From Oscillospiraceae bacterium (GTDB lineage: Bacteria > Bacillota > Clostridia > Oscillospirales > CAG-272), in assembly GCA_015064185.1 (NCBI GenBank), contig SVSS01000002.1, positions 1 to 64,000 of the forward strand: a stretch of DNA of 64,000 nt, in the 5' to 3' direction. The position numbers were made by a program, and so were the translations under genes. Under the pieces are notes generated by a model. The model was not told the origin of the DNA, made no database searches, and worked only from the letters and a program-made list of their open reading frames with translations. Below, in pieces: positions 2,311-30,851 of the stretch (positions within the stretch are counted from its first letter, which is position 1; each line of letters starts with the position of its first letter).

Positions 2311-2351
2311 AAGCCTATCTTGGATTTTTCCGAGGTAGGCTTTATTTTTTT
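2311..2351 (+). terminator. Rho-independent terminator of the phage late operon
   Basis: AAGCCTA...TAGGCTT arms around a loop are followed by a T-rich tract (TTTATTTTTTT). It lies 20 bases after the holin stop and ends the tail/lysis transcription unit. Confidence 0.85.
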
Positions 2352-2406
2352 GCGTTAAACCTTCACTTTTTCGCTCTGCCGTGGCTTTTAGGTGGAGGTG
2401 GTATAG

Positions 2407-2950: not shown

Positions 2951-2999
2951 TATATAACTCTTTTAGAGGTAATATACACATACCAAAAAGGAGGTAAAT

Positions 3000-4295: not shown

Positions 4296-4296
4296 A

Positions 4297-5886
4297 ATGG
4301 CAAAGGTTACAGTTATTCCCGCCACAAGGGATTTTCACACAGGTGTTTCAAAGACAAGTAGGCGCAAACGCAGAGTGGCGGCTTATGCACGTGTTTCCAC
4401 CAATAGCGAAGAGCAAGTTACCTCTTATGAGGCACAGGTGGATTACTACACGAAATACATCCAAAGTCGACCCGATTGGGAGTTTGTCAAGGTTTATACT
4501 GATGAAGGTATAACTGGAACGAACACCAAGCACAGAGACGGCTTTAATGAGATGATTGAGGATGCCCTCGCAGGCAAGATTGACCTTATCATCACAAAGT
4601 CGGTCAGCCGTTTTGCCCGCAATACTGTTGATAGCCTTATCACAGTGCGTAAGCTCAAGGAAAAAGGCATCGAGGTCTACTTTGAAAAGGAAAATATTTA
4701 TACCCTCGATAGCAAGGGCGAGTTGCTTATCACGATTATGAGTTCCTTGGCACAGGAAGAGAGCCGTAGCATTTCGGAAAACATAACGTGGGGCAAGCGT
4801 AAATTCTTCGCAGACGGCAAAGTGTACCTGCCTTATAAATCCTTCCTTGGCTACGAAAAGGGCGAGGATGGGCTTCCCAAGATAGTCCCCGAAGAGGCAA
4901 ACATTATCCGCCTTATTTATTCAATGTTCCTTGACGGCAAAACGCCGTATGCGATAGCAAGCATTCTTACCGAAAGCGGTATTCCCACGCCAAGGCAAAA
5001 GGCGGTGTGGAAAGCAAGCACCATCGAGAGTATTCTTACAAACGAAAAGTATAAAGGCGCAGCCCTTTTGCAGAAAACCTTTACAGTGGATTTCCTTACG
5101 AAAAAGATGAAAACCAACGAGGGCGAAGTGCCTCAATACTATATCGAGGATAGCCACGAACCGATTATTCTGCCGAGAGAGTTCGAGGTAGTGCAAGCGG
5201 AAATGGCAAGGCGCAAAGGTGTCAAAGGCAATTATAGCGGAAACACCATTTTTGCCTCCCGTATTATTTGCGGGGATTGCGGTGAGTTTTTCGGCTCAAA
5301 GGTATGGCACTCTACAGATAAATACCGCAAGGTCATATACAGGTGCAATCATAAATACGCAGATAAAAACCGCCGATGTGAAACACCCCACCTTACAGAG
5401 CAAGAAATCAAAGATGCTTTTATTGCGGTATTTAATACGCTTATGGCGGATAAGGATGCGGTGCTTGATGCCTGCCGTGTGATGCAGGACACGCTGGCGG
5501 ACACCACCGAGATTGATTTCAAGATTGCAAGGTTGCAAGAATCCCAAGAGGATGCGGTAGTTCTTCTGAAAAAGCACGTCGAGGACAATATGCGAGTTTC
5601 CCAAGACCAAGAGGCTTTTTGGAAACGCTACGATGAATATGAAAAACGTGCAAATGACCTCGCAGCCGAGCTTGACGAACTGAAAGTTATCCGCATACAA
5701 CGTTTGCAAGAGGCGGAAATCATAGGCGCATTTATGTTTGAAATCCACGAGCGCGAGGGCGTGATTGAAACCTTTGATGAGAGGCTTTGGAGCGTTTGCG
5801 TGGAAAGCGTAACTGTATATAAAACGGGTGAGATGGTGTTCCGTTTCAAGAATGGAATGGAGATAAAACACCAAAAAAGTAAATAA
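4297..5886 (+). CDS. Large serine recombinase (second of tandem pair)
   Basis: 529 residues. The catalytic domain is at about 25-170: YARVSTNSEE places the nucleophile at Ser34, and TKSVSRFARN holds the catalytic arginines. A recombinase domain follows, then a zinc ribbon (CGDCGEFFGSK, later YRCNHKYADKNRRCETPHL) with an embedded coiled-coil-like region (about 400-470). It begins one base after the stop of the preceding recombinase. Both catalytic sites look intact, so they may act as a heteromeric pair or on different sites. This is the complete large serine integrase architecture. Confidence 0.9.
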   Translation: MAKVTVIPATRDFHTGVSKTSRRKRRVAAYARVSTNSEEQVTSYEAQVDYYTKYIQSRPDWEFVKVYTDEGITGTNTKHRDGFNEMIEDALAGKIDLIITKSVSRFARNTVDSLITVRKLKEKGIEVYFEKENIYTLDSKGELLITIMSSLAQEESRSISENITWGKRKFFADGKVYLPYKSFLGYEKGEDGLPKIVPEEANIIRLIYSMFLDGKTPYAIASILTESGIPTPRQKAVWKASTIESILTNEKYKGAALLQKTFTVDFLTKKMKTNEGEVPQYYIEDSHEPIILPREFEVVQAEMARRKGVKGNYSGNTIFASRIICGDCGEFFGSKVWHSTDKYRKVIYRCNHKYADKNRRCETPHLTEQEIKDAFIAVFNTLMADKDAVLDACRVMQDTLADTTEIDFKIARLQESQEDAVVLLKKHVEDNMRVSQDQEAFWKRYDEYEKRANDLAAELDELKVIRIQRLQEAEIIGAFMFEIHEREGVIETFDERLWSVCVESVTVYKTGEMVFRFKNGMEIKHQKSK

Positions 5887-5898
5887 TTATAGTCAAAA

Positions 5899-5929
5899 AT
5901 GCTCCTACGATGCTTTTTCGCAGGAGCAT
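5899..5929. terminator. Hairpin between convergent transcription units
   Basis: ATGCTCCT (5899-5906) pairs with AGGAGCAT (5922-5929). It sits between the rightward recombinase pair and the leftward ParB-like operon, so it can stop both. T-tracts are weak. Confidence 0.5.
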
Positions 5930-5933
5930 ATTG

Positions 5934-6788
5934 CTATTTGTCATCATCTGTAGGAAGGTCGAAAGTTATCGGCTCTTCGTACTCATCATCGATGCCTTCT
6001 TTTTCATAGAGCTTTCCGATGCGTAAACGATGCACATTATTTTTCTTTTTGCCATTGTACTCGATAACCATAGCCTCTGCATATCCCATCATACCGGGAC
6101 GGCGTTCCTTTGCGGTTCTTGCAAGTGTTTTGAGTGAAACCGCACCGAGCTTTTCTTTGAAAATTTCATCATCAAGCACATTTTTATATACCACTACAAG
6201 TTTTGCCACCGCTTTCATAATGCTACCAGAGAAGGAGTTGCAATCACCCTCCCAAGCACCAATGATAAGGCGGAGGACACGGCTCAAAACATGATAGCCG
6301 TAATCCTTGTAAATAGACTCAACAGTGGCTATAGCGCAAATAACGCCGTGGGTTTTCTGTGAGCCGATGGTAAGGCCGAAGGATTCCACCAAATCCCGAA
6401 TGATAATCTGCTCATCATTGCCCGCCTCGATGTTTGCCATAAACACCTCAAGGGGCTGTAGGTTCTTTACGAATTTCATCTGATTTGCGAAAATATCCGC
6501 TTCGTGTTCGTAGCAGAGGTCATCGTAAATCATACACCAGACAGGGGTTTCTCTTGAGCCTGAAACAAGAGCTACGATTTCTATGGTGTGCTGACCATTA
6601 AAAACATAATTGATGCCGTCCCTTCGGCTAACCTTGACGGGGTTGATTTGATACAGGTCAAAGTTTTCTGCAGCACGGGCAATATGCGTATGCGAAAGGC
6701 TACGCTGATAGTCTTGGTTTGACACCAAGTTCTTTATAGGTATCTGCTCGAAATGCACATTCGGCACGAACATACTGTAATCGTCCAT
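5934..6788 (-). CDS. ParB-like domain protein, last gene of leftward operon
   Basis: 284 residues. The N-terminal ~100 residues have a ParB/sulfiredoxin-like pattern: IPIKNLVSNQDYQR, then INPVKVSRRDG and NGQHTIEIVAL, the last corresponding to the ParB GxHR-type loop. The C-terminal two thirds are helical and unfamiliar. ParB-like folds bind DNA or hydrolyse CTP/ATP; here the classical ERR arginines are not obvious, so enzymatic activity is uncertain. It begins one base after the stop of the next ParB-like gene. It could act in element maintenance or as an accessory to the upstream recombinase. Confidence 0.6.
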   Translation of the reverse strand: MDDYSMFVPNVHFEQIPIKNLVSNQDYQRSLSHTHIARAAENFDLYQINPVKVSRRDGINYVFNGQHTIEIVALVSGSRETPVWCMIYDDLCYEHEADIFANQMKFVKNLQPLEVFMANIEAGNDEQIIIRDLVESFGLTIGSQKTHGVICAIATVESIYKDYGYHVLSRVLRLIIGAWEGDCNSFSGSIMKAVAKLVVVYKNVLDDEIFKEKLGAVSLKTLARTAKERRPGMMGYAEAMVIEYNGKKKNNVHRLRIGKLYEKEGIDDEYEEPITFDLPTDDDK

Positions 6789-6789
6789 T

Positions 6790-7728
6790 TTACTCCTCCT
6801 CTATGAGTGCGAGTAATTCTGCTATGGTATCTTGCAGGTCGCACAATACATCTTTTAATTTTTCCTTTGCACGATCTGAAACGATAGCGGCATTGATATT
6901 TTTATGAGCGCGTTTTATAGAGCTTGTCCACGAAGGAACAGTAAGAGATAGCTCAACGGCGGGGGCGTCGGGGTCAAACGCTGGCATATCCTTGACGGAT
7001 GGTCTAACGGGCGGTGGAGCAACTACAGTGTTTTTTCTTGGCGGTCTGCCTCGGTGAGGTTGGTTCATTTGGATGCTATAAGTTTTTTGCTCCTCACCGA
7101 AATCCGCCCTCCGAAGTTCTGATGCGGAAAGTTTAGAAAGTTCCACGACACGTTGGTGTGGGAGCTTTAGCCGACCTGCGAGGATTTTAGGTAAGACCTC
7201 GGGATATTTTGCGCCTATGCTCAAAAGCGCCTTTGTATAAATAGCGTACTTTTGAATGGTGGCGTGAGTGACGTTGTTTTCATCGGCTAATCGTTGCGCC
7301 GTTGTATGCCTTGTAGGTGATTCAGTATAATTCACGCTATCAAGGGATAAGGCGGCATCTGTGCCACGCCAAGGCGTATAAGTACGGGAGCGAGTGCTAT
7401 TGAGATATTTTTCCGCTTCATACTGCATACCAATTAGGAATTTGCGTGTTTCAAAGGTCAAGTCCCGGCGTTGGAGTTGCTTTTTGCAGACAAACGCCAT
7501 AGCCGCCTCTTTGCACGAAAAGCGCATTTCTTCGACCTCATATGGGATATCGTGGCGCAGGCAGATTTCATAGCGAGTAATACCATCAATGATATAACCC
7601 TTCCAAGTAACGATAGGCTCGGTGCAACCTTCTGCAAGGAGTTTTTCTTCAAGCAGTAGGTATTCCTTTTTGGAGTATGGGCTTATAAGGTTTGTAAAAT
7701 CTTGATTTATTTGCAAGCGTATGTTCAT
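6790..7728 (-). CDS. ParB-like nuclease-domain protein
   Basis: 312 residues. The first ~95 residues fit a ParB N-terminal domain: LLEEKLLAEGCTEPIVTWKG, then IIDGITRYEICLRH, the equivalent of the DGxxRYxA loop. A central helical region (about 95-210) has HTH-like character: TAQRLADENNVTHATIQKYA. A proline-rich linker and a final helix follow. Such proteins are common on phages, plasmids and integrative elements and act as DNA-binding partition or regulatory factors. It lies 10 bases from the upstream gene and 1 base from the downstream one. Element function is inferred. Confidence 0.65.
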   Translation of the reverse strand: MNIRLQINQDFTNLISPYSKKEYLLLEEKLLAEGCTEPIVTWKGYIIDGITRYEICLRHDIPYEVEEMRFSCKEAAMAFVCKKQLQRRDLTFETRKFLIGMQYEAEKYLNSTRSRTYTPWRGTDAALSLDSVNYTESPTRHTTAQRLADENNVTHATIQKYAIYTKALLSIGAKYPEVLPKILAGRLKLPHQRVVELSKLSASELRRADFGEEQKTYSIQMNQPHRGRPPRKNTVVAPPPVRPSVKDMPAFDPDAPAVELSLTVPSWTSSIKRAHKNINAAIVSDRAKEKLKDVLCDLQDTIAELLALIEEE

Positions 7729-7738
7729 ATACGTGTCC

Positions 7739-8113
7739 TCAACTTTCTACTTTCGCTATGGTGTCCATTGCAAAAACCGCCATTTTCTCTGACGTAAGAA
7801 TGGTACCTAAAAGACGATATGTGCCGTTTTCTTCAAGACCGCCCACAACGCTGCAAAGCTCCTTTATAAAAGAACCGCTATAAATTTCGCAAGAGTTATC
7901 GGGGCCAAGCATTTCAGCATTTACCTTGTGCGACTGGTCACCCGATGTAACCTTGTCCACGCACTTAACGGCTACGATTCGCCTATTTGTGCTAACAAGC
8001 AGTTGTATATACCTTGGGTCACCAAGGGCGTGGAGGGTGGATTTATGTATTCGTATTCTATGTTTCTTTGGGTCGATAGATAGTATCGTTCCCGTTTGTA
8101 AATTATCACTCAT
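7739..8113 (-). CDS. Small protein related to the recombinase C-terminal domain
   Basis: 124 residues, no named family recognised. The pattern IRIHKSTLHALGDPRYIQLLVS, then RRIVAVKCVD, SFIKELCSVVGGL, GTYRLLGTILTSEKMAVFAMD, follows the same order of strands and helices as the C-terminal domain of the recombinase encoded two genes upstream and as the adjacent 243-residue protein. It looks like a minimal free-standing version of that domain. It overlaps the preceding gene by 4 bases (ATGA), so translation is coupled. Function unknown; it may bind DNA or the recombinase. Confidence 0.5.
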   Translation of the reverse strand: MSDNLQTGTILSIDPKKHRIRIHKSTLHALGDPRYIQLLVSTNRRIVAVKCVDKVTSGDQSHKVNAEMLGPDNSCEIYSGSFIKELCSVVGGLEENGTYRLLGTILTSEKMAVFAMDTIAKVES

Positions 8114-8841
8114 TGATTATCTCCTTCCGCATTTACGGGTGCAGGCAGAGCAGCATTTTCATCTGCCACCGCCGTGGTGTCTTTAATTGCGTAAACAGCG
8201 TAGCCATCAAAAATATTTATCTGCATCGATTGCTTATGAACGCTATACGGCAATCCGAACTGTGTCTGCCATTCCGAGGGGAACACGGGCGTTCTCGATG
8301 TTTTTGGCTTTTTCTGTCCTTCGACAAAAGTGCGCTCATACATTTCGGGAGCGTTAAGGTCGAAAACGATTAAATATTCGCCGTTGGAATGCATCAAGCG
8401 CCCAAGCACCTTATATCGATATTTCGGATTCCATTCCATCATAGACACAATCTTTGCAAAGAACGGCTTGCAAGTGATAGGACGAGGTTTGCGCTTACCC
8501 TTGGAGTTGTTGCACCAAAGGTAGGCATCCTTTGCGCCTTCCTCACAGGGGCGTAAAGCTATAATCTTGTCCGTTTGGTTTACAAGCACCTGTGCAAAAT
8601 CGAATTGCGGGAATTTAGAAATACACGCCATGTTGACTTGGAACTTAAAATCGCAGAAAGTGACGGACGGCTCTCGCATATGTGCAAAGAACTCACGTCT
8701 TACCACTTGGAAATCGTCAAAATTAAAATCGGCGGCTTCAATAACCTCATCCCCATCTGAAAGGACAGGTGCGTTTGTGGCAGAGGGAGCAGCCTCGTCC
8801 ACGACTTTTAATAGTTCCGTTATAGTATCAGATTGATTCAT
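8110..8841 (-). CDS. Free-standing homologue of the recombinase C-terminal domain
   Basis: 243 residues. The start is the ATG at 8841, placed 6 bases after GAGGAGG and 14 bases inside the end of the recombinase gene; a longer frame upstream has no ribosome site. Residues about 45-195 align with the C-terminal part of that recombinase: VRREFFAH / VARAEFFD, ALRPCEE / ALRPTDK, EWNPKYRYKV / GWNTEYKYKI, PSEWQTQFGLPY / PEEWMFSFGKPY. No catalytic motif is visible. It is probably a partner or regulator of the recombinase derived from the same domain. The family name is unknown to me. Confidence 0.6.
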   Translation of the reverse strand: MNQSDTITELLKVVDEAAPSATNAPVLSDGDEVIEAADFNFDDFQVVRREFFAHMREPSVTFCDFKFQVNMACISKFPQFDFAQVLVNQTDKIIALRPCEEGAKDAYLWCNNSKGKRKPRPITCKPFFAKIVSMMEWNPKYRYKVLGRLMHSNGEYLIVFDLNAPEMYERTFVEGQKKPKTSRTPVFPSEWQTQFGLPYSVHKQSMQINIFDGYAVYAIKDTTAVADENAALPAPVNAEGDNQ

Positions 8842-10723
8842 CAGTAACCTCCTCGAGTGAGATGCCACTCAATTCTTGCCTTATGTATCTGCGGAGTTCC
8901 TCAAAGGGCGTAACGTTGATGCGCTTGCCCGTTTCAAAGAGTTGGCCTTGTATCCGCAATTGCCAATCTATCTCGCTTTGGTTTTCAAGTTCCTCAACCG
9001 AGCGTTCGTGAAAATAATACGGCTTGCCGAAAGAAAACATCCATTCTTCGGGATATCCTTTGATGTAATTGCCAACGGCGGACAATGGCTTTAAGGATGC
9101 CGAATCTTCCTGCCGTGGAATCATATAGGACTTGAAGTAGGTTTCGCAATCGGCGGTATCGAAAATAAATACAATCTCTCCGTCCTTTTCGTAGATAGAG
9201 CCGTTAATTTTATATTTGTATTCGGTGTTCCAACCGAACAGACGATACAAGGTTTCAAAAAATGCCGAGGCTGGGATATCTTTCGGATAGTAAACCTTAT
9301 ACGACAGAGTTGAGCAGTAGACCCCTTGACGATTATCCTTATCCGTCGGGCGGAGTGCGAGTTTCTTGGTGATAGGGTTTACAAGCAACTCTACATAATT
9401 TTTTGCGCCAAGTTTGCGTATGCAATCGGTGTTGAATTTTATTTTCTTATCCACAAAGGTAACATACGGGCGGTGGGGCGTGTCGAAAAACTCTGCACGG
9501 GCAACCTCAAAGCCACGAAGGTCGAAATCCCCGGCGGCAACTTCGATTTGTATTTCAGTAGGTGGTATAGCCGTTTCGGTAGCCTCTTCGATATTATCGT
9601 AAACGCTGACCGCTGCTTGGAAATAATCGCCCTCCTTGAAATTTGCCCATCGAGGGTGGATGCCCACAAAACCTTTCAGAATACCGCTATCAATAACCCG
9701 CAGTTCAGGAAGGAAGGCGCGGTTGCCGTATCTTGCGTTTTCAATCATATGCTGAACGGCAATATAGTCCGCCTTGGAAACGATAGCTTCGTGGTGGTTG
9801 GAGTAATGGCTCTGCGGTCTATCTCCTTTGTTTATCAACGTGCGGTGTGTGCGGTAGTTTTCAGTATAGGTCTTACGGGTTATAACGTCACCGCAGTGGC
9901 GCTCATTTCGCAGAATTTGAATAATACTGCCTGATGTCCATTTGGTGGTGTTGCCAAGGTAGGACTTACGCTCAAGGGCTATAAAGGCTTTTGCGATTTG
10001 CCCCGAAGAGTAGCCGAATAGGTACATATAAAACGCCAATTTTACAGTGGGAGCTTCGTCGGGATTGATGATAAGGTTACCATCTGCATCGTGGCTATAA
10101 CCGAGCAATTTCGGCGTAAGGGGCAAGCCGTGGTCAAGGCGCATACGCAGCGAGGTTTCCATACTACGGCTACGGGTATGTGATTCTTCTTCCGCCATAG
10201 TGGCTTGGAAGGACAGTGCCATAGAGGAGTCCTCGTTGAGAGAGAAAATAGCCTCCGACTCAAAGAAAACACCAACTGCGGGCTTCCTTTCGGCAAGCTC
10301 ACGCACGATGCCTATAAAGTCATACTGATTACGCGCAAAACGGGATACGCTTTTGGTGATAATAAGCGTTAATTTGCCTGCCTTTGCATCAGCAATCATC
10401 TGCTTGAACTCATCACGATTTTTAAGAGATGTGCCACTGATACCTTCGTCTGCGTAGATTTTCACAAGTGTCCAGTTTGGGTGGCGGGAAACGAACTCCT
10501 CATAGTATTTTTTCTGTAGCTCGAAAGAGGTTGTTTGCCTTACGTCATCGGTGGAAACACGGACGTAAATACCGACCAATTGTGGCGTTTCGGTATCGTA
10601 ATAATCGGTTTTCTTCTTTTCGGGGATATATTCGTAATTATCGGGGTCTATTTCCACACGCATACGGCGGCGGACTTTTTCCTTTTGCTGCCACTTTGTA
10701 TTACGCTTTTCTTCGTCAATCAT
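8828..10723 (-). CDS. Serine recombinase with unusual C-terminal domain
   Basis: About 631 residues from the start chosen here; the open frame extends to 10,744, but GGAGG sits just before the ATGs at 10,726 and 10,723. The resolvase domain has YVRVSTDD (nucleophile Ser57 in this numbering) and TKSVSRFARN with both arginines. A recombinase DNA-binding domain follows. The usual zinc ribbon is absent; the last ~225 residues form a different domain (FFDTPHRPYVTF, ALRPTDKDNR, FGWNTEYKYKI, YPEEWMFSFGKPY) shared with the next two genes. It is the likely catalytic component of this operon, acting at unknown sites. Gene ends overlap both neighbours. Confidence 0.85.
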   Translation of the reverse strand: MIDEEKRNTKWQQKEKVRRRMRVEIDPDNYEYIPEKKKTDYYDTETPQLVGIYVRVSTDDVRQTTSFELQKKYYEEFVSRHPNWTLVKIYADEGISGTSLKNRDEFKQMIADAKAGKLTLIITKSVSRFARNQYDFIGIVRELAERKPAVGVFFESEAIFSLNEDSSMALSFQATMAEEESHTRSRSMETSLRMRLDHGLPLTPKLLGYSHDADGNLIINPDEAPTVKLAFYMYLFGYSSGQIAKAFIALERKSYLGNTTKWTSGSIIQILRNERHCGDVITRKTYTENYRTHRTLINKGDRPQSHYSNHHEAIVSKADYIAVQHMIENARYGNRAFLPELRVIDSGILKGFVGIHPRWANFKEGDYFQAAVSVYDNIEEATETAIPPTEIQIEVAAGDFDLRGFEVARAEFFDTPHRPYVTFVDKKIKFNTDCIRKLGAKNYVELLVNPITKKLALRPTDKDNRQGVYCSTLSYKVYYPKDIPASAFFETLYRLFGWNTEYKYKINGSIYEKDGEIVFIFDTADCETYFKSYMIPRQEDSASLKPLSAVGNYIKGYPEEWMFSFGKPYYFHERSVEELENQSEIDWQLRIQGQLFETGKRINVTPFEELRRYIRQELSGISLEEVTDESI

Positions 10724-11318
10724 CATTGCCTCCATCTGTTTCATCGGGGAGCAACTTCCAATCCGGGGACGGCAGGAAGAAGGTGTCCTTCAAATCGTCT
10801 TGATAATAATGAGCGAGGGTGAAGATATCCTCGGAAATAAAGTACATACCGACAGGAGGCTTTTGGGCTGCAAACGCCCGTGCTAAAAAGGCTATCTCAT
10901 ATGGCTTTTTCGATACGTTGGATACTTTTTGGGTGATGATGAGGTCAACTTTTCTGTCCATACAATCCTGTAAGAGCCGACTCCATTCTTTTGCGTTTTC
11001 CATATTCGGTGCGGTTGCGCCCTCGTCAATATAGAAATCCACAAGTTCCCAATTGGGGCAAAGCGCCATCGTGTCTTTGAACTCCTTGATGTGGTAATCC
11101 AAATAGTCCGTATGCCTTGTTTGATTGAAGTATCGGATATAAATGCCGACCCTGAAATGGTGAGCCGTGTTAGGCCTTTCGTGGCGGATATTTTGTAGCC
11201 ACGCTTTATGCTCGGCAATCTTCTGCGCCTGCTCGGTATTTGCTCCAAAGAAAGCGGAAAATTTCTGCGCCTCACCGATTTGCATCAAGCGTTCATATAC
11301 CTCAACTTCTGTACTCAT
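10716..11318 (-). CDS. Catalytically degenerate serine-recombinase-like protein
   Basis: 200 residues. Residues 55-155 align along their length with the resolvase domain of the downstream recombinase (CPNWELVDFYIDEG / HPNWTLVKIYADEG, DLIITQKVSN / TLIITKSVSR, KPPVGMYFISEDIFTL / KPAVGVFFESEAIFSL). The nucleophile is gone: YVRVS has become YIRYF, placing Phe64 where serine should be, and the arginines of SRFAR are Asn134 and Lys137. No DNA-binding domain follows. The frame is intact and it leads a six-gene operon, so it looks like a retained non-catalytic partner or regulator rather than decay. It overlaps the active recombinase by 8 bases. Confidence 0.75.
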   Translation of the reverse strand: MSTEVEVYERLMQIGEAQKFSAFFGANTEQAQKIAEHKAWLQNIRHERPNTAHHFRVGIYIRYFNQTRHTDYLDYHIKEFKDTMALCPNWELVDFYIDEGATAPNMENAKEWSRLLQDCMDRKVDLIITQKVSNVSKKPYEIAFLARAFAAQKPPVGMYFISEDIFTLAHYYQDDLKDTFFLPSPDWKLLPDETDGGNDD

Positions 11319-11350
11319 AGATATAAGCCTCCATAGTTATAGTTGCCAAC

Positions 11351-11389
11351 ATTATAACCGCTTTTTCGACAAATTGCGAATAACTGTCG
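11351..11389 (-). promoter_or_regulatory. Probable promoter and operator of the leftward recombinase operon
   Basis: Read on the minus strand there is a TATAAT box (11,356-11,351) about 30 bases before the GGAGG ribosome site of the first gene. Just upstream is an imperfect palindrome, CGACA...TGTCG (11,367-11,389), spanning where a -35 box would lie. The -35 itself is poor, fitting a regulated promoter. The regulator is not known; the neighbouring XRE proteins are candidates. Confidence 0.45.
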
Positions 11390-11441
11390 GTCAGGTTTTT
11401 AACCGTGGGTTATTGAAACGCAAAAAAATATTGAAGGCAAT

Positions 11442-11468
11442 AAAAAAAGAGTGGGCGCAAACCCACTC
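11442..11468 (-). terminator. Terminator of the leftward XRE gene
   Basis: On the minus strand GAGTGGG and CCCACTC flank a six-base loop and are followed by a run of seven T. It starts 3 bases after the XRE stop codon and insulates that gene from the recombinase operon. Confidence 0.85.
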
Positions 11469-11470
11469 AA

Positions 11471-11830
11471 TTAGTCATCGTATTCAGTTTTATTGGTACG
11501 CATCGTTGTCTTCAACTCACGCACAATTTTAAGAATTGCCTCGACTTCCGTTGGTGTACAATCACCAAGCAAATCGGCAAATTCCTTCTGGTATATTTGG
11601 TTCACATGAGGGACATCGGGGCGTAGGATTTCGTCCGCTGACACTTGCAACGCTTCAATGATTTTGCAGAAGGTTGTAAGGAGCATTTCCTTCTTTCCGA
11701 GTTCGATATCACTGATGTGTGGCAAGGACACATGGGCATCAAATGCCAAGTCCGCTTGGCTCATTTTCTTCGCTTGACGTGCAGCCCTTATTCGCTGTCC
11801 AACTTTATATTCTATGCTATTCTCATCCAT
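11471..11830 (-). CDS. XRE-family transcriptional regulator (repressor-like)
   Basis: 119 residues. The HTH at about 10-66 (VGQRIRAARQAKKMSQADLA, then VSLPHISDIELGKKEM) is a Cro/CI-type DNA-binding domain. The C-terminal ~45 residues (CTPTEVEAILKIVRELKTTM) form a short helical tail typical of small XRE regulators. It is transcribed divergently from a second XRE gene across a 144-base region containing repeated operator-like sites. This is the arrangement of a lysogeny or element-control switch. Which one represses which promoter cannot be read from sequence. Confidence 0.85.
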   Translation of the reverse strand: MDENSIEYKVGQRIRAARQAKKMSQADLAFDAHVSLPHISDIELGKKEMLLTTFCKIIEALQVSADEILRPDVPHVNQIYQKEFADLLGDCTPTEVEAILKIVRELKTTMRTNKTEYDD

Positions 11831-11844
11831 TTTGGCGCACCTCC

Positions 11845-11931
11845 ATAAACCACAGACGAATTTATCACTTATAGTTTATCATTTCCAGACGATTATTGAA
11901 ATCTTCGGCTGACGATTATATCGTCCGCAGT
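11845..11931. promoter_or_regulatory. Repeated operator-like sites between divergent XRE genes
   Basis: Copies of a [AT]TCGTC core occur at 11,845-11,860 (minus strand TTCGTCTGTGGTTTAT), about 11,887-11,894 (minus, AATCGTCT), and as a perfect palindrome GACGATTATATCGTC at 11,911-11,925 whose right half reads ATCGTCCGCAGTTTAT. A related copy occurs upstream of the SLOG gene. Placement in the control region of two HTH regulators supports operator function; binding is inferred. Confidence 0.5.
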
Positions 11932-11974
11932 TTATAATAAATTAGAGAAATTTTTAACTTAAAGGAGGTTCTTA

Positions 11975-12322
11975 ATGAAACTTGATTTTTATACCGTGGG
12001 GCAAAGGATACGAAGATTGCGTAGGCGCAAAAAACTATCCCAAGCCACCCTTGCCGAAATGGTGGATGTTTCGGCTACATACATAAGTCATCTTGAGAAC
12101 GGAATGAAATTTATGAGCGTGGAAACGCTGATTGCTCTTGCCAATGCACTGGGCGTTTCTACAGACACAATCCTATGCGATTCTCTCGACCAACAGTTAT
12201 CAGCCTGCGTGACGGAGTTTGAGATAATTTTGAAAGATTGCACCAATTATGAACGGCGGGTAATCCTCGATAATGCGAGGAGCATCAAGAAGGCTTTACG
12301 AGATAATAAGTATCTGAAATAA
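11975..12322 (+). CDS. XRE-family transcriptional regulator
   Basis: 115 residues. HTH at about 8-62 (VGQRIRRLRRRKKLSQATLA, VSATYISHLENGMKFMSVET), followed by a helical tail (CTNYERRVILDNARSIKKAL) resembling that of the divergent XRE protein. AAAGGAGG is 8 bases before the ATG. It begins the rightward cargo side of the element, followed by an operator-like copy and the SLOG gene. It probably controls the shared intergenic region together with its divergent neighbour. Confidence 0.85.
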   Translation: MKLDFYTVGQRIRRLRRRKKLSQATLAEMVDVSATYISHLENGMKFMSVETLIALANALGVSTDTILCDSLDQQLSACVTEFEIILKDCTNYERRVILDNARSIKKALRDNKYLK

Positions 12323-12323
12323 A

Positions 12324-12378
12324 TATCGTCCACGGACTATAAAAATTGGTTGAAAAAGTCATAATTATATGCTATAAT
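12324..12378 (+). promoter_or_regulatory. Promoter with operator-like site for the SLOG gene
   Basis: TTGAAA (12,350-12,355), a 17-base spacer and TATAAT (12,373-12,378) form a near-consensus promoter. Directly upstream, ATCGTCCACGGACTATA (about 12,325-12,341) resembles the ATCGTCCGCAGTTTATA site between the XRE genes, suggesting common control by those regulators. Confidence 0.6.
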
Positions 12379-12411
12379 TGATATATCTCTTATTTCGATT
12401 GGGGTGGTAGT

Positions 12412-12990
12412 GTGGCAGAAAAAAGGTGCTGTTTTATTGGACATCGTACCATTACGCTGACCGATGAACTGGTAACGAACATAAAAAATATTATTTGCAG
12501 GCTCATTGTGGATGAGGGTGTGAAGTATTTTCTATTTGGCAGCCGTAGTGAGTTTGATGACCTTTGCCACCGAATCGTAACCGACTATCAAAAAGAGTAT
12601 CCCCATATCGTGCGTGCTGCATACACTCGGCGTAGCGAATATGCCGTAAAAAAAGACGAGAAAGAGAGAATGGAAAAGTCGTGGAGTTCGCTCCTGAAAA
12701 CGGATGTTAAACTCAAGGACTACGATGCCGAGGTGCAATCCGATAGGGTTTACTCGGCGGGAAAGGCATCATATGTCGAGCGCAATCAAGAGATGATAGA
12801 TGCCAGTGATTATTGTATTTTCTATTATAACGAGGCGTATCAGCCTCCGCAAAGAAAAAGGGCTAATAGGGATTTAACTTCCTATCAGCCGAAAAGCGGG
12901 ACTCGCATTGCGTATGAGTATGCGGTTCAAAAAAGTAAGAAAAACGATAAAATTGTAATAAATACGTTCGCATCCTATGAAACGGATTGA
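12412..12990 (+). CDS. SLOG-superfamily protein (YpsA / DUF1273-like)
   Basis: 192 residues from a GTG start, preceded by a purine-rich GGGGTGG site. The N-terminal RCCFIGHRTI is the phosphate-loop-like signature of YpsA/DUF1273-type SLOG proteins; FLFGSRSEFDDL and ASDYCIFYYNE fit the later strands of the Rossmann-like fold. SLOG domains bind nucleotides or nucleotide-derived ligands and often occur in phages and defence loci. The ligand here is unknown. Its promoter carries a copy of the element's operator motif, so it is likely controlled by the XRE switch. Confidence 0.65.
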   Translation: MAEKRCCFIGHRTITLTDELVTNIKNIICRLIVDEGVKYFLFGSRSEFDDLCHRIVTDYQKEYPHIVRAAYTRRSEYAVKKDEKERMEKSWSSLLKTDVKLKDYDAEVQSDRVYSAGKASYVERNQEMIDASDYCIFYYNEAYQPPQRKRANRDLTSYQPKSGTRIAYEYAVQKSKKNDKIVINTFASYETD

Positions 12991-13015
12991 AAAATTCATT
13001 ATTTTATGATATACT
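12987..13015 (+). promoter_or_regulatory. Promoter of the protease-lipoprotein cargo operon
   Basis: TTGAAA, a 17-base spacer and TATACT. The -35 overlaps the end of the SLOG gene, so the cargo genes can be transcribed independently of it. Confidence 0.7.
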
Positions 13016-13049
13016 ATTTTAATAAACAATTTAAGGGAGTGGCAAAGAA

Positions 13050-15695
13050 ATGAAATTAAAACGGGCCTTGTTACCGATTTTAATACTCATACTGACGTTG
13101 ACGATGGTTGCTTGTTTTACTGCTTGCGACTCTTCTGATAACGACAATGAACCCCATACGCATAGTTTTTCCGAATGGACAACTACTGAAGAAGCAACTT
13201 GTTCTTCTGTGGGTACTCAAAAACGTGTATGCACTTGTGGGTATACTGAATACAAATATATAGAACAATTGCCACATACCGAAGTAGTAGATGAGGCTAT
13301 TCCTGCTACTTGTACTGAAAGCGGTAGAGGCGAAGGAAAGCACTGTGGCGTATGCAATGAAGTACTGCAAAACGCTATTGTGATTGAGCCGTTGCAACAC
13401 GCATGTGATGATGTAACTATTATTGAAGAAGCGACTTGCCTTAAAAACGGCACAAAGAGATTTACTTGCATCCGTGAGAATTGCGGTTTTTATTATGATG
13501 AGGCATATCCGTTACAGGAGTATACCTCAACGGAGATATATAATCAAGCGCTTAAATATGTGGGCGAAATAATAACCTATGATAAAAAAGGAATTCCACT
13601 TGCACAAGGCACAGGATTCGTTAGCAGTGCAGACGGAAATATTATTACAAACTACCACGTTATCGATGGCGCATATACAGCCACGATTACGATTGGCGAA
13701 GATACATATATGATTCAATCCATATTGGCTTTTGATGCCGATATTGATTTGGCTGTCTTGAAAATAGATGCCACGGGACTCATTCCCGCAAATATCTGTA
13801 AGAAAGAACCTGTCATAGCTGCGGAAGTTTATGCTATAGGTTCACCCGAAGGATTTACTGCTTCTATATCCGTTGGCAATGTTTCTTATGCTCAAAGGGT
13901 TATTGATGGTGTTACATATGTCCAACATACGGCAGCAATAACGCATGGCAGTTCTGGAAGTCCGCTCATAAACAAGCACGGTGAAGTTATTGGAATCAAT
14001 GCGGGTGCTTTCTATGGCGAGATTAATGTTGCTATTTTTACAGGTGAACTCGATAATTTGGTGTATGGTACACCGATAACGCTGGCGGAACTTTATGATT
14101 CCCAAAACACCCCGAATGATATTCTTCGAGAGTGGTTGCTTGGTAATTATAATTTCGTTACCGATGATTTAACGTATTACCAAATTGAAGGTGAAGGCTT
14201 TATTTATGCTGTCGGTTATGATGCCACGGCGGGTATTAACTTCCTTGAGTGTATTTGGGAATTTGCTGACGGCTCTGATTTGTATTTGAGCATCGATTTA
14301 ACCCTAACAAACGATGGGTTGTACACGTATTATGCGCATTATACCCTTGGTGACAATGAAAATTACACCCGTGGATATATAAATCCCGAAACATATATGG
14401 TTACGACTATACTTACGCATTATTCGTATGAAGGTGAGTATTGGGAAGAAGAAAGTATCATGGAGTTTTACTCAAGTGCCGTTGCCTGTGTGATGGAATG
14501 GTTCGATTATTGCCTTGATAATTATGTTGAGGAAATCGACACCGAAGATTTCGGGTTTGAGGCTCTTGCGTTTGATTACAACACAGATGCGCTAACTCTA
14601 TTGAAAAACCATATTCGCACAGAAGGCGAAGTAGACACTGCGAATTCTTGGTACAGAATTGATGAAGAATACGAAGGCTCTAATTATGACGTAAAATTGT
14701 CGATGGTATATGACGCTAACAATAATAGCGCTTTTGCATCGATGAGTTGGTTCGGTGATGACGGAACATATTATTACACATATTTGAGTTTGAATCCAAC
14801 GGCACTCGGTTACTACTATGGTTGCTCATATAGTATTTATTCTAATGGCAGTTTTATAGACCAAAACGATGTAAAAGGCTATATCGAGGCTGGCACATTT
14901 ACTACCAAGGCAAAATTGGGCTATTTCAGTTATGAGGGGCTTCCTGAGTATGAAGACGATTTGCTTGAGATATACTCCGCATGTATACAAGACCTTTTGA
15001 ATTGGATGGGTGCATATTTTGATGGCGCAGACTTGAATTATGGCCTTGCTGATTTAGGTTTTATCTTCTATGACGGATATGCTCCTGCACAGGATTGTGA
15101 TGGAGAGAATCACTATTATCAGACTCCAACCTTCACGTGGGTAGAAGACGAGAACGGATTTAATGTGACGTCAACCTTCGTTTGTGGTTGTGGTACTTAT
15201 TCCGATACCGCTACGACTTATGTTTCCAACACGGATTATGTTGTTACCAAAAATGCAACTGAAACAGAAATTGTTTATGCCTTTACTGCAACTGTTGTTT
15301 TTAATGGTTACACATATACCGATACTCGTTATATAAAGTACGAATGGCAGAGTGTCACACTTCATAATTCCAACTACAAGGATTATCTTGGTGTAGGCTG
15401 TAGTAACACCTCATACCTTGTAAGCACATCGGTGTCTAAAAAATACGAAAACTTAACCTATACCGATGTTACTGTTACATTTACTGTACGTATGACAGGA
15501 ACTGCAAACAATGGTGCAGGCGGAATGGGATATAGCAAAACAGAAACCATCGTGAGTGGGTTCGGGCAAAAAACAACTAATGTTTCGTCAATTGGCTTGA
15601 GTGGATATATATTCTATCCTTCGACACTGACATATTCAGTTGCGGTCAGCGGTCAAGTGTCGGGGTACTTTATGACGGAATATCTTGTACCATGA
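13050..15695 (+). CDS. Secreted HtrA-like trypsin-fold protease lipoprotein
   Basis: 881 residues. A lipoprotein signal peptide has its cysteine at Cys22 or Cys26. Residues 35-150 hold Cys-rich repeats (CTCGYTEY, HCGVCNEV, CLKNG...CIRENC) common in exported clostridial proteins. A trypsin-fold HtrA/S1C-type domain follows at about 165-345: His203 (NYHVIDGA), Asp233 (DIDLAVLKI) and Ser302 (HGSSGSPLIN) give a complete triad. No PDZ domain is evident. The ~520-residue C-terminus contains two related acidic/aromatic segments (around 480 and 650) and is otherwise unrecognised. It should act outside the cell, anchored to the membrane. It is cargo of the element, with lower GC than the chromosome to the right. 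Confidence 0.8.
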   Translation: MKLKRALLPILILILTLTMVACFTACDSSDNDNEPHTHSFSEWTTTEEATCSSVGTQKRVCTCGYTEYKYIEQLPHTEVVDEAIPATCTESGRGEGKHCGVCNEVLQNAIVIEPLQHACDDVTIIEEATCLKNGTKRFTCIRENCGFYYDEAYPLQEYTSTEIYNQALKYVGEIITYDKKGIPLAQGTGFVSSADGNIITNYHVIDGAYTATITIGEDTYMIQSILAFDADIDLAVLKIDATGLIPANICKKEPVIAAEVYAIGSPEGFTASISVGNVSYAQRVIDGVTYVQHTAAITHGSSGSPLINKHGEVIGINAGAFYGEINVAIFTGELDNLVYGTPITLAELYDSQNTPNDILREWLLGNYNFVTDDLTYYQIEGEGFIYAVGYDATAGINFLECIWEFADGSDLYLSIDLTLTNDGLYTYYAHYTLGDNENYTRGYINPETYMVTTILTHYSYEGEYWEEESIMEFYSSAVACVMEWFDYCLDNYVEEIDTEDFGFEALAFDYNTDALTLLKNHIRTEGEVDTANSWYRIDEEYEGSNYDVKLSMVYDANNNSAFASMSWFGDDGTYYYTYLSLNPTALGYYYGCSYSIYSNGSFIDQNDVKGYIEAGTFTTKAKLGYFSYEGLPEYEDDLLEIYSACIQDLLNWMGAYFDGADLNYGLADLGFIFYDGYAPAQDCDGENHYYQTPTFTWVEDENGFNVTSTFVCGCGTYSDTATTYVSNTDYVVTKNATETEIVYAFTATVVFNGYTYTDTRYIKYEWQSVTLHNSNYKDYLGVGCSNTSYLVSTSVSKKYENLTYTDVTVTFTVRMTGTANNGAGGMGYSKTETIVSGFGQKTTNVSSIGLSGYIFYPSTLTYSVAVSGQVSGYFMTEYLVP

Positions 15696-15717
15696 GATAA
15701 AAAAGGAGATAGAATCA

Positions 15718-16257
15718 ATGGGAAGATGGGTATATAGAGAGGGCAAAAAAGGTCCAATATCAAGTTATTTCAGAAGCTACTTTTTTGCGTGCCTTATCTT
15801 TAATTTCATAGGCCTCATAGGTTGTATTTCTGTAAAATATTACGATGAAGAGATAACAAAAGCAAAGTGGAAAGGTGCTTTCGCAGGGCTTTCGTTTAGT
15901 ATTGCAGGCATTGCTTGGGCTATTATTGCCACCTCAGCTATTAAAAACAACGCACTTGTTGTTATTACTGCGTTCATTTTGCTGGCGGGTGTTTTCTTCG
16001 GAATCCTCTATAAGTACGGCGGACAAGAGGAAGATGAGACTCCTGTAACGACCTCTACGCCAGCGCAAAGCATCTCTTCACAAGAGATGAAACTTTGGGT
16101 TGAGGCCTATCTCCGTAATATTGGAATGAACTCGGTTGCTATTAGCGCAGCAGTTAGTGATGGTAAATTATCAAAAAGCTATAATTTAATTAGACGGAAA
16201 GCGTCAATGTCCAAGGAAGATTTTTTGATTGAAATGGGAATGTACGAGTTTCTATAA
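15718..16257 (+). CDS. Small membrane protein with three transmembrane segments
   Basis: 179 residues from the ATG at 15,718, chosen because AAGGAG lies just before it; an upstream in-frame start overlaps the protease gene and has no ribosome site. Three hydrophobic helices (about residues 25-43, 58-78, 82-102) are followed by a cytosolic tail with an SHOCT/Ltd-like helical end (KLSKSYNLIRRKASMSKEDF). It is 22 bases from the protease gene and 15 from the following lipoprotein gene, so all three form one operon. Function unknown; it may help assemble or regulate the exported proteins. Confidence 0.6.
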   Translation: MGRWVYREGKKGPISSYFRSYFFACLIFNFIGLIGCISVKYYDEEITKAKWKGAFAGLSFSIAGIAWAIIATSAIKNNALVVITAFILLAGVFFGILYKYGGQEEDETPVTTSTPAQSISSQEMKLWVEAYLRNIGMNSVAISAAVSDGKLSKSYNLIRRKASMSKEDFLIEMGMYEFL

Positions 16258-16272
16258 TTTGAGGCAAATATT

Positions 16273-17886
16273 ATGAAAAAGAAAATCACACTTTTATTAA
16301 CATTAATACTTGTCCTTTTATGCTCCGTATGCTTATTTGTCGGTTGCGATGAAACGCCCGACAATATAGGTGGAAGCGGTAACGGCGGCGGAACTACTCA
16401 AACGCCGAGCGGAGGCACTTCCGAAGGTGCGGGAGATAACACAAATAGCAATGCGCCTATTACATTAAAGAACACGGGATTTGATAAAAACAATTCCGCA
16501 AGCCTCACTGTTTCAGGGCAAACGGAGATTTTTTCCTTTGCCGATAATATAACCGCAAACAACGGCTACTCATATCGTATATATTTGAGTGCTGATTGTG
16601 CAGAAGCATCGGTAATTGATAGCAATTATGATGGCTTGGACTATGGTAAAAACTATTATTATATAAAAGCCACAAAAGGTGCTGATACCAAGCAGTACAC
16701 TCTGTGTGTTGTTAGAGAAAAATATCTAACGGTTACATTTGATTTTGGTGATGGAACAGAAAATGAAACTGTTTCGGTGTTATATGGTGACACTGTTAAT
16801 CCTCCTGCCAGAGTACCTAATCCTGTTGGATACACCTTCAAAGGGTGGAACTTTGATTTTACAAAAGGTATAACCGATGATACCACTATTGGTATTATGT
16901 GTCAGGTCAATAGCTATACTTGTACCCTTGATTATAATTATGACATCCCTGATGATACTAAAACAGTTTTTTATGATGCGATTACATACTTGGGGACTCC
17001 CTCGCGGGCGAACCATAGATTTTTAGGGTGGTATTATAACGGCACCAAGGTAGAAAGCAACACGAAATGGAAATATGCCGAGGATATTACTCTTGTTGCA
17101 GAGTGGGAATTTATAGGCACAGAGGGGTTGACTTTTAGCAAAATTGATGGCCGAGATGCATACAGTGTTGGTTTTGGCACAAAAGCGACAGAGGCAAGTG
17201 AGGTAATCATTCCAGACACATATAATGGAATGCCTGTAGTAAAAATGTCTTCTCCTATGTTCTGCGAATTCACTAAAATTACGCTACCGAAGAACTTGGA
17301 ATATTTGCCAAGGTTTCAATACTGCTATAATTTGAGAGAGATTGTTATTCCTAAAACCGTTACCGAAACGGCGCATAATGCTTTTAGCGGTTGTAGCTCA
17401 TTACAAAACATTACATTTGAAAATGGTGGAACGGCATTGACATTAGGAGTACAGATATTCCAAAACTGCACTTCGCTTTCGTCCATTACGCTGCCTGACC
17501 ACTTAACTGACATCGGGTTGTATCCGTTTGATGGGTGTTCCTCTTTGAGTAGTATAAATGTTTCCGATAATGCTACAAACTTTAAGTCTGTTGATGGTGT
17601 TTTGTACTCAAAAGATATGAAAACCATTTACGCATATCCTCCCGCAAAACTTGGCACGACTTATACGTTGGATGGCGTTTCAAAGATTTTTGATGGTGCA
17701 TTCGATAGTCATTATTTGACCACATTAAATATTAAAAACTTTGGTGTCGCATTTAATATCGGCAACGTAGCTTTTTCGGGTTGCACCCAGCTTACCACAA
17801 TAAATTTTTATGGAACGGAAGAGCAGCTCGGTTTTAGCCAACACGCACAAGTTTCTTCTTCAATAACAATAAATTACTTGGGTTAG
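16273..17886 (+). CDS. BspA-like leucine-rich-repeat surface lipoprotein
   Basis: 537 residues. The signal peptide ends at the lipobox CLFVGC (Cys25), followed by a Gly/Thr-rich linker (35-60). Around residues 155-260 are Listeria-Bacteroides-type repeats (YTFKGWNFD, HRFLGWYYNG). From about 290 on are LRR_5/BspA repeats: AFSGCSSLQNITF, IFQNCTSLSSITLP, PFDGCSSLSSINV, AFSGCTQLTTINF. Such proteins are displayed on the surface of gut bacteria and bind proteins or glycans. It is the last gene of the cargo operon. A second BspA-like lipoprotein occurs on the chromosome at 54,254. Confidence 0.82.
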   Translation: MKKKITLLLTLILVLLCSVCLFVGCDETPDNIGGSGNGGGTTQTPSGGTSEGAGDNTNSNAPITLKNTGFDKNNSASLTVSGQTEIFSFADNITANNGYSYRIYLSADCAEASVIDSNYDGLDYGKNYYYIKATKGADTKQYTLCVVREKYLTVTFDFGDGTENETVSVLYGDTVNPPARVPNPVGYTFKGWNFDFTKGITDDTTIGIMCQVNSYTCTLDYNYDIPDDTKTVFYDAITYLGTPSRANHRFLGWYYNGTKVESNTKWKYAEDITLVAEWEFIGTEGLTFSKIDGRDAYSVGFGTKATEASEVIIPDTYNGMPVVKMSSPMFCEFTKITLPKNLEYLPRFQYCYNLREIVIPKTVTETAHNAFSGCSSLQNITFENGGTALTLGVQIFQNCTSLSSITLPDHLTDIGLYPFDGCSSLSSINVSDNATNFKSVDGVLYSKDMKTIYAYPPAKLGTTYTLDGVSKIFDGAFDSHYLTTLNIKNFGVAFNIGNVAFSGCTQLTTINFYGTEEQLGFSQHAQVSSSITINYLG

Positions 17887-17972
17887 ACTTATTGTTAAAA
17901 TTGAACCCTTTTACCGAAAATGAAACCTTTTCGTAAAAGTGAAACTTGTATCATATAGTTAGTTACTCACAA

Positions 17973-18004
17973 TAAAAAAAGCCGCCTTGTGCGGCTTTTT
18001 TTAT
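17973..18004 (+). terminator. Terminator after the mobile-element cargo operon
   Basis: AAAAAAAGCCGC-CTTGT-GCGGCTTTTTTT is a strong symmetrical hairpin. A weaker hairpin (TTTTACCGAAAA with TTTTCGTAAAA, 17,909-17,938) precedes it. The sequence right of the terminator reads into an inverted tRNA-end-like segment, as also happens beside the tRNA-Ala gene. Confidence 0.85.
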
Positions 18005-18005
18005 T

Positions 18006-18130
18006 GGTGGATCCGAGGCTCAGAGTTGAACTCTGCAAGGTGCAGGAAAACTATAAAATTTGAAGTTGAAAGGTGCACCTTGCCATTTGCCGCAGGGCGG
18101 CAAATAAATCGATATCTCCTCGGATCCACC
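18006..18130. repeat. 125-bp cloverleaf-like element with 13-bp terminal inverted repeat
   Basis: GGTGGATCCGAGG (18,006-18,018) pairs perfectly with CCTCGGATCCACC (18,118-18,130). Inside are three hairpins: CAGAG-TTGAA-CTCTG (18,021-18,035), GCAAGGTGCA with TGCACCTTGC (18,035-18,044 / 18,074-18,083), and ATTTGCCGC-AGG-GCGGCAAAT (18,085-18,105). The left end read backwards looks like a tRNA T-arm plus acceptor ending CCACCA. It fills most of the gap between 17,887 and 18,267 and holds no gene. It may be a small mobile structure, an attachment-site scar or an untranslated RNA. The fold is visible; the role is not. Confidence 0.6.
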
Positions 18131-18267: not shown

Positions 18268-18879
18268 ATGTATATCGATTATAGCAAATTATGGAAATTG
18301 TTGATCGACAAAGGCATGAGCAAAACCGATTTGAAGGATATTACCGGAATCAGTTCAAGAGTATTGGCAAAATTATCAAAGAATGATACGGTTACCACCG
18401 ATACAATCGCCAGAATTTGCTCCGCACTGAACTGTGATGTGAGTGACATTATGGAATGTGCCAGCGAGGAGCGGCTATCCGTATATTCTGCCTACAAAAG
18501 ATATGGAAAATGCGTGGCGGAAAATAAGTTATTTAAGACGGTTCAATTTACAATAGACAGTCAAAAATACACGGTTTATCAATCAAAACAGATTGCAACC
18601 AAGGCAACCCATATTTGCTGTAACGAGGATGGGGCGATATACTGGGAACAAATTTTCGCCATTGGAACCGTTGCCACCACATCCGAAAAGAAACTCTTGA
18701 TCAAGCCTTGTCTAAGAAACGACGAGATCTCGATTGTGTTGATCAAGGGAAAACCGGGCGTTATTGTTGGGCTTGATGAGAACGGTTTTATTTCGAGCAG
18801 AGGCGTTCGAAAAAAACAATCTGATATTTATGTTATGTCTGAAGCTGCGTTCAAGCTGTTCGTTCCTCAAGTATTTTAA
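18268..18879 (+). CDS. XRE-type HTH protein with unknown C-terminal domain
   Basis: 203 residues from the ATG at 18,268. Residues 5-68 (LWKLLIDKGMSKTDLKDITG, then VTTDTIARICSALNCDVSDI) match the small Cro/C1-type HTH often found beside restriction-modification or mobile genes in Firmicutes. Residues 75-203 form a second, compact domain (QKYTVYQSKQIATKATHICC, EKKLLIKPCLRNDEISIVLI) that I do not recognise. No partner gene is adjacent: an element scar lies on the left and a gene fragment on the right. It may be a leftover regulator from another insertion. Confidence 0.7.
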   Translation: MYIDYSKLWKLLIDKGMSKTDLKDITGISSRVLAKLSKNDTVTTDTIARICSALNCDVSDIMECASEERLSVYSAYKRYGKCVAENKLFKTVQFTIDSQKYTVYQSKQIATKATHICCNEDGAIYWEQIFAIGTVATTSEKKLLIKPCLRNDEISIVLIKGKPGVIVGLDENGFISSRGVRKKQSDIYVMSEAAFKLFVPQVF

Positions 18880-26660: not shown

Positions 26661-26849
26661 AAAAGGGGCTGTCTCAAATTTTCAATTTGAGACAGCCCCT
26701 TCGCGTCAAAAAGGCGACGGTAGGCTTTTTGACGCCGGGAATTTGTGTTTTTTACCCGCCGGCGGGTGAAAATGGCGGCGTTTAGCCGCCAAACAAAAAC
26801 CATAGGGGCTTGTCGACCAAATGCAAAGCATTTGAGACAGCCCCTTTTT
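26661..26849. repeat. Nested-hairpin intergenic repeat element
   Basis: A 189-bp block bounded by AAAAGGGGCTGTCTCAAA on the left and TTTGAGACAGCCCCTTTTT on the right (inverted ends). Inside are a complete GGGGCTGTCTCAAA hairpin (26,665-26,699), GTCAAAAAG...CTTTTTGAC (26,705-26,733), the perfect palindrome ACCCGCCGGCGGGT, GGCGGC-GTTTA-GCCGCC, and a final imperfect GGGGCTTGTC...GACAGCCCC hairpin. It has no coding capacity. It resembles a MITE- or REP-like element and would also terminate the sigma operon. Confidence 0.65.
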
Positions 26850-30584: not shown

Positions 30585-30660
30585 GGGGCATTAGCGCAGT
30601 TGGGAGCGCACAACACTGGCAGTGTTGGGGTCAGGGGTTCGAATCCCCTATGCTCCACCA
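30585..30660 (+). tRNA. tRNA-Ala (anticodon GGC)
   Basis: 76 bases folding as a cloverleaf: acceptor GGGGCAT with ATGCTCC, D-arm region TAGCGCAGTTGGGAGCGCA, anticodon stem CAACA/TGTTG with loop CTGGCAG (anticodon GGC), T-arm AGGGG-TTCGAAT-CCCCT, and encoded ACCA end. Decodes GCC and GCU. A strong promoter lies directly upstream; its terminator is part of a long mirror repeat of its own 3' end. Confidence 0.95.
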
Positions 30661-30716
30661 ATAGACAAAAAACCGCCTGAAAGGGCGGTTTTTTGTCTAT
30701 TGGTGGAGCATAGGGG
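30645..30716. repeat. Perfect 33-bp inverted repeat of the tRNA-Ala 3' end around its terminator
   Basis: Bases 30,645-30,677 (CCCCTATGCTCCACCA plus the following 17 bases) are exactly repeated in reverse complement at 30,684-30,716, with a six-base TGAAAG centre. The inner part, AAAAAACCGCC...GGCGGTTTTTT, is the tRNA terminator, but the symmetry extends outward through the CCA end and acceptor strand. A normal terminator does not need that. Confidence 0.92.
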
Positions 30717-30851
30717 TCACTCGACCCCTGTGGAAGATTCCGTTTGAAGCGGAAAGCTTGGCAGTTCTATGGCGAATCTTCAAGCAGCCGCGCAAAGCGC
30801 GCCTGCGGGGTTCGAATCCCCGAGATAGAACGAGCCACCCATAAGGGCGGC
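30712..30851 (+). other. Structured tRNA-like element ending in a terminator
   Basis: Successive hairpins: AGGGG-TCACTCGA-CCCCT (a degenerate inverted T-arm), GAAGATTC/GAATCTTC (30,733-30,740 / 30,774-30,781) enclosing TTCCG-TTTGAAG-CGGAA, CAGCCGCGC-AAA-GCGCGCCTG, and CGGGG-TTCGAAT-CCCCG, a perfect plus-strand T-arm. GTTCTAT (30,764) can pair with ATAGAAC (30,825). It closes with GCCACCC-ATAA-GGGCGGC and TTTTTT, a plus-strand terminator. There is no usable anticodon arm. It may be an untranslated RNA or a tRNA-derived mobile relic. No open frame of note. Confidence 0.5.

Follow-up and report, generated by a model that had tools for sequence, protein, structure and literature searches.

The ssrA-type element and its surroundings

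We have analysed a window of 64,000 nucleotides (positions 1 to 64,000 of contig SVSS01000002.1, Oscillospiraceae bacterium assembly GCA_015064185.1; its genome is referred to below as G000, and the other genomes compared by similar labels). The first part of the window (1-17969) is a prophage or island with tail-fibre genes, several large serine recombinases (3000-4295, 4297-5886, 8828-10744 and a partial one at 10716-11318), ParB-like genes and trypsin-like and BspA-LRR cargo, with its right boundary at about 17966-17980. It is followed on the forward strand by a palindromic terminator (17970-18006, a 16-bp perfect inverted repeat with a T-run), by a 125-bp structured element (18006-18130) and by a gene of the HTH_26 (Cro/C1-type) family (18268-18879, PF13443, E=6.7e-18), which is possible cargo and is also found behind the ssrA element of the sister genome G015. 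ARAGORN recognised a single gene of the tRNA/tmRNA kind in the whole window, a tRNA-Ala(ggc) (30585-30660, forward strand), behind which lies a second element of the same family (30701-30821, forward strand), with an inverted copy of the tRNA-Ala 3' end, a hairpin 1 (GGAAGATTC..GAATCTTC), a hairpin 2 and a direct T-arm copy (GGGGTTCGAATCCCC); a covariance model recovered it at 30713-30821 (E=2.4e-5). Further along, on the reverse strand, there is a Xer-family tyrosine recombinase of 347 aa (32192-33235), one of only two PF00589 proteins found in this genome. Another palindromic repeat, with 18-bp perfect arms (GGGGCTGTCTCAAAT...), lies at 26662-26847 and is partly 88-93% identical to a stretch in G003 (locus L072, 7218-7458).

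The 125-bp element had been described in an earlier note as a cloverleaf with a 13-bp perfect outer stem around three hairpins with stems of 5, 10 and 9 bp, and this observation was confirmed. GGTGGATCCGAGG (18006-18018) and CCTCGGATCCACC (18118-18130) are perfect inverted repeats, and between them lie a 5-bp hairpin (18022-18034, CAGAG/CTCTG), a 10-bp hairpin that we call hairpin 1 (18035-18083, stem GCAAGGTGCA/TGCACCTTGC) and a 9-bp hairpin that we call hairpin 2 (18085-18105, stem ATTTGCCGC/GCGGCAAAT). The predicted RNA fold has an energy of -59.3 kcal/mol on the forward strand (z -7.9) and -60.1 on the reverse strand (z -8.9), and the DNA fold of -34.4 (z -7.7). Perfect 13-bp inverted repeats 40-160 bp apart occur at three places in the window, one of the other two being the element behind tRNA-Ala, but only 0-2 times per shuffled window (five hits in 30 shuffles). 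The 5-bp hairpin is specific to this copy, as it is not formed in G003 and G002, and relatives use that stretch to extend the outer stem.

A DNA search of relatives found homologues in the same genus, and in G015, G003 and G002 they lie tail-on to the tmRNA gene ssrA, separated from it only by its palindromic terminator, 34-44 bp behind the gene in sister genomes. The outer stem is in fact the ssrA 3' end, present twice, inverted at the left (18006-18030, covering CCA, acceptor and T-arm, ...GGTGGATCCGAGG) and direct at the right (18109-18130, TCGATATCTCCTCGGATCCACC). For the window copy tmRNA is the best match for both ends among tRNA/tmRNA ends, although only the direct end is clear-cut (17/22, next best 13/22), the inverted one being less so (16/22, with three tRNA types reaching 15/22). 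The earlier interpretation, in which the left end mimicked the reverse complement of a tRNA T-arm and acceptor, was thus only partly supported: the mimicry is real but the gene is tmRNA and it is copied at both ends, and the 5-bp hairpin is not conserved. The note had also placed the element exactly at the boundary between low-GC cargo and chromosome. This is explained by the prophage and is not a property of the element itself. Homology to G015 resumes at 17970, which in G015 corresponds to the last bases of the ssrA CCA and where the same terminator directly follows ssrA. The prophage therefore sits at the 3' end of ssrA and has cut the gene off from its terminator and element. No full tmRNA gene was found in the 16 contigs of G000, although this genome is 95% complete; since the contig starts at window position 1, ssrA is probably in the gap to the left of it, or lost. 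A comparable situation was found in G003 (locus L253, contig C19, 1-700), where an ORF reading like a large serine recombinase C-terminus, in an apparent serine-recombinase island, runs up to the terminator of a tRNA-Asn-type element whose tRNA-Asn gene is itself missing.

A family of elements behind tRNA and tmRNA genes

A covariance model built from four copies found 35 copies in 118 genomes, all of them in the same genus of gut Clostridia. A richer model found 78 copies in 15 of the 21 genomes of the genus, including the six that are at least 90% complete, and none outside the genus among 245 genomes drawn from the order. Of these 78, 62 lie on the same strand less than 1200 bp behind a tRNA or tmRNA gene; several of the 16 exceptions are at contig edges, one is the window's own copy, and others lie behind cargo. 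Besides tmRNA, the genes followed are those for Glu, His, Tyr, Arg, Thr, Leu, Lys, Ser and Ala, while Asn-type copies sit mostly behind Lys. Where the element directly follows a gene the gap is mostly 30-53 bp; all of these were on the same strand, but the loci had been chosen for an upstream same-strand tRNA and only the spacing is informative. Occupancy is variable, and the ssrA genes of G020, G018 and G001 have no element.

The ends of the elements track the local gene. In 87 terminal tRNA/tmRNA flanks, a direct copy of the gene's own last 22 nt at +90 to +280 reached 15/22 in 34%, against 0.5% when the ends of other tRNAs were tried on the same flanks, and an inverted copy at +25 to +75 reached 14/22 in 32%, against 2%. 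Either of them reached 14/22 in 50 of the 87. The ssrA elements of G014 and G017 follow the GGGTCC variant (as opposed to GGATCC) of their own ssrA acceptor. We considered that the inverted copy might simply be the tRNA's own 5' acceptor strand, but this was rejected because it follows the Watson-Crick complement of the 3' strand (GGATCCG, GGAGCAT) and not the genes' own 5' strands (GGGTCCG, GGGGCAT), and because it extends into CCA and T-arm. However, the inverted copy is not universal: Glu-type copies pair other sequence, and elements behind cargo keep the direct copy but not a matching inverted one. The T-loop copies at loci L112-L171, L214 and L219 often carry one extra base (TTC-N-GA), as if to spoil a real T-loop or a recombination site. 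Several core types exist, a hairpin-1 loop motif (TGAAGTTCTATGG) recurs at different tRNAs, and similar cores are found at unrelated tRNAs within one genome, e.g., Gly/Val with 83% over 60 bp and Gln/Leu with 90% over 41 bp. Flanks in other genera of the family show the same layout with other cores, but rarely.

The fold is supported by compensatory changes. On 36 distinct copies 93.6% of cells were paired (98.4% in hairpin 1 and 94.7% in hairpin 2), against 63.8% in shuffled and 37-47% in slid controls, and 30 of 31 pairs showed changes on both sides. The alignment was fitted to the structure, so that it is the slid and shuffled controls and not the raw percentage that carry the argument. The absence of other copies and of covariation at homologous loci had been named beforehand as what would count against the element, and both further copies and covariation were found. 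We also used G.T pairs to try to tell RNA from DNA. They are scarce in the two hairpins (5 of 623 cells, against 11 of 231 in tRNA acceptor stems), which leans towards selection at the DNA level, but over all helices G.T exceeds A.C 39 to 11, as a sense-strand RNA would give, and related copies are counted repeatedly, so this is weak evidence.

Signs of integration and cargo

The flank behind the direct copy in G003 aligns with the sequence directly behind ssrA in G001 (score 59, best of 300 shuffles 27), a likely pair of filled and empty sites, although it is one pair only and the same flank type also follows tRNA-Pro in G000. A second palindromic tail (GCGGCAAGTTGCCGCCCCC..ATCATCGGGG) starts directly after CCA at different genes (the tRNA-Pro flank of locus L113, behind the direct copy in L072 and behind ssrA in L080). 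Tandem arrays were found, with five units of 165 bp behind tRNA-His in G014 and three units behind tRNA-Glu in G016. Two near-identical Glu-type units with different downstream sequence are located at the ends of contigs C8 and C13 of G017, and are probably the cause of the contig breaks. The window and G015 have nearly identical flanks but different cores at the same ssrA site, and G010 carries a type-B unit plus the remains of a type-A core, so that units are exchanged or lost differentially.

Genes are also found between copies: an HNH protein behind tRNA-Glu, an MBOAT-type operon behind tRNA-Cys, a methylase-like protein behind tRNA-Ser, an AraC regulator plus a serine hydrolase behind tRNA-His, and tRNA-Lys and an IS3 in tRNA-Asn arrays. 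Cargo names other than the HTH, trypsin-like, LRR and recombinase genes come from our reading of the translations and not from database hits. In seven of nine such cases the direct end of the far element fitted the upstream or expected tRNA best or tied-best; for Ser(gga) of G000 the best was another Ser isoacceptor (15 against 14), and the G015 HTH remnant did not match. In G019 (locus L171, contig C9, about 38730-38850) a tRNA-Lys(ctt)-like sequence with extra hairpins inserted in the D-loop and the anticodon loop is followed by an Asn-type element.

No dedicated recombinase was found. Tyrosine recombinases are few and vary between genomes, and the two Xer-like ones of G000, located outside the units, score 76.9 and 62.9 with the integron integrase model TIGR02249, against a cut-off of 265. 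The HNH protein was rejected as a family-wide engine, as it has no counterpart in the other 20 genomes. Y1 (RAYT-type) transposases (PF01797) were absent from G000, G014, G016, G017 and G019, and reverse transcriptases (PF00078) were absent from G000 and present in only 3 of 21 genomes, which speaks against IS200/REP-type transposition and against a retron or RT-primed retroelement. Searches for copies in plasmids or phages gave nothing relevant, and in viral contigs a two-arm pattern gave 0 hits and a 15-base loop motif 69 raw hits, about what we would guess for chance. No known RNA family, including T-boxes, matched above an Rfam gathering score, and the element itself was not recognised as a tRNA or tmRNA gene.

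Possible nature of the elements

The explanation that we favour, although with no more than even confidence, is that the element is the right-hand attachment site of a very small integrative cassette at the 3' end of ssrA, one of a family planted behind tRNA and tmRNA genes throughout this genus. In this view, a cassette would consist of cargo (often only a replacement terminator, sometimes genes) followed by the structured element, lying between the working 3' end of the tRNA and a direct copy of that end, the layout left when an island splits a tRNA gene and restores it. The two ends of the element pair in one strand, in most copies rebuilding the T-loop-to-CCA part of the tRNA gene as a duplex capped by two hairpins, and the most likely mechanism is that this folded single strand is the substrate of a tyrosine recombinase acting in trans, as with integron attC or CTXphi attP(+). 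What our data show is the fold, its covariation, the association with tRNA genes, the local copies of their ends, the tandem arrays, a likely empty versus filled site and the cargo between copies. Mobility by site-specific recombination is inferred, whereas single-strand folding as the active form is an analogy and, like the identity of the enzyme (the resident Xer protein, a candidate only, or a lost one), speculative. Copies at one tRNA stay there across species, so that recent jumping is not shown, and no circle, excision or single-strand intermediate is known.

There are precedents for the separate parts of this picture. Integrative islands of tRNA and tmRNA genes (tyrosine-integrase islands, Islander database, PMC4383910) also insert at the 3' end of the gene, keep it whole, leave a displaced 3' fragment in direct orientation at the far end, form tandem arrays and have tmRNA as a favoured target. 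Here, however, most units are about 165 bp and gene-free, holding only a terminator and the fold, carry no integrase, end in a covarying multi-hairpin structure and occupy a large share of the tRNA genes of many isotypes in one genome. Integron cassettes are each closed by an attC site (PMC4792948), palindromic, variable in sequence and conserved in structure with paired end boxes, as found here, and their arrays are anchored at one double-stranded site; in our case the anchor is a tRNA gene end, different at every locus, no integron integrase meets its NCBIfam cut-off, and the core stems carry two hairpins. Every tRNA T-loop carries GTT, the complement of the AAC crossover triplet reported for integrons, but this is suggestive only. 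In CTXphi attP(+) (PMC3089051), two copies of the target site in opposite orientation about 90 bp apart pair in a single strand, a forked hairpin of about 150 bp, and rebuild the double-stranded attachment site, but the target is dif rather than tRNA ends and the carrier is a filamentous phage, and no phage genome or dif core was found here, the genome's own dif not having been located. REPIN/RAYT and other MITE-like repeats are also short, gene-free and hairpin-forming with inverted ends, but the ends of our elements copy the local tRNA gene and G000 has no RAYT-type transposase. A bolder version, which the data allow but which remains doubtful, would be an integron-like system anchored on tRNA genes, in which the tRNA 3' end plays attI, each cassette is closed by a folded single-stranded attC-like site that rebuilds the local tRNA end, and gene-free and gene-carrying cassettes accumulate behind many tRNA genes of a genome, driven by a Xer-type or unknown recombinase. 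Literature searches found no description of such elements, the nearest being an unrelated short palindrome 10 bp behind tRNA genes in Methanopyrus kandleri (PMC5217627).

Among the alternatives, the one that survives best, though we consider it unlikely, is a structured RNA, transcribed by read-through behind the tRNA or from the other strand and acting, for example, in tRNA/tmRNA 3' processing, as a decoy of the T-arm/acceptor half, or in attenuation. The strong covariation, the fixed orientation and distance to tRNA genes, the recurring loop motif and the excess of G.T over A.C would fit. However, a strong terminator lies between tRNA and element, there is no Rfam match, the sequence is quasi-palindromic so that no strand is clearly favoured, G.T is scarce in the hairpins, occupancy is patchy, copies also sit behind cargo kilobases away, and integration-like direct repeats are not needed for an RNA. 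Slightly less likely still is that no dedicated enzyme is involved, and that tandem duplication plus template switching at terminator palindromes created the inverted and direct copies of the tRNA end and keeps them matched to the tRNA, in effect a concerted evolution of palindromes. This would account for the alternating orientations of tRNA ends separated by hairpins, for arms that stay perfect with few intermediate mismatches, for the near-identical tandem units and for the scarcity of reverse transcriptases and Y1 transposases, but not for the similar cores at unrelated tRNAs, the recurring loop motif or the kilobase cargo flanked by matching tRNA ends; sister genomes with ca. 95% identity also differ in core type at the same ssrA site, although loss from an array with both types could explain that. 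Finally, it is very unlikely that these are chance leftovers of ordinary tRNA-integrating prophages or islands after repeated insertion and deletion, in spite of the serine-recombinase prophage at this very ssrA site and the apparent island at the tRNA-Asn-type element of G003, as debris would not keep a three-helix fold with compensatory changes in 15 genomes nor a fixed unit of terminator plus element.

Genes for tRNA are the commonest docking sites of bacterial mobile DNA, yet what lies directly behind them is usually treated as terminator and spacer. Here, about half of the terminal tRNA genes examined in one genus carry a covarying structured element made partly from the gene's own 3' end, real, recurrent and, as far as our searches reach, undescribed. 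If these are cassettes, they form a gene-capture platform spread over many tRNA genes at once, and a third known case, beside integrons and CTXphi-type phages, of a folded attachment site. If they are RNAs, they are a new class of structure tied to tRNA and tmRNA genes.
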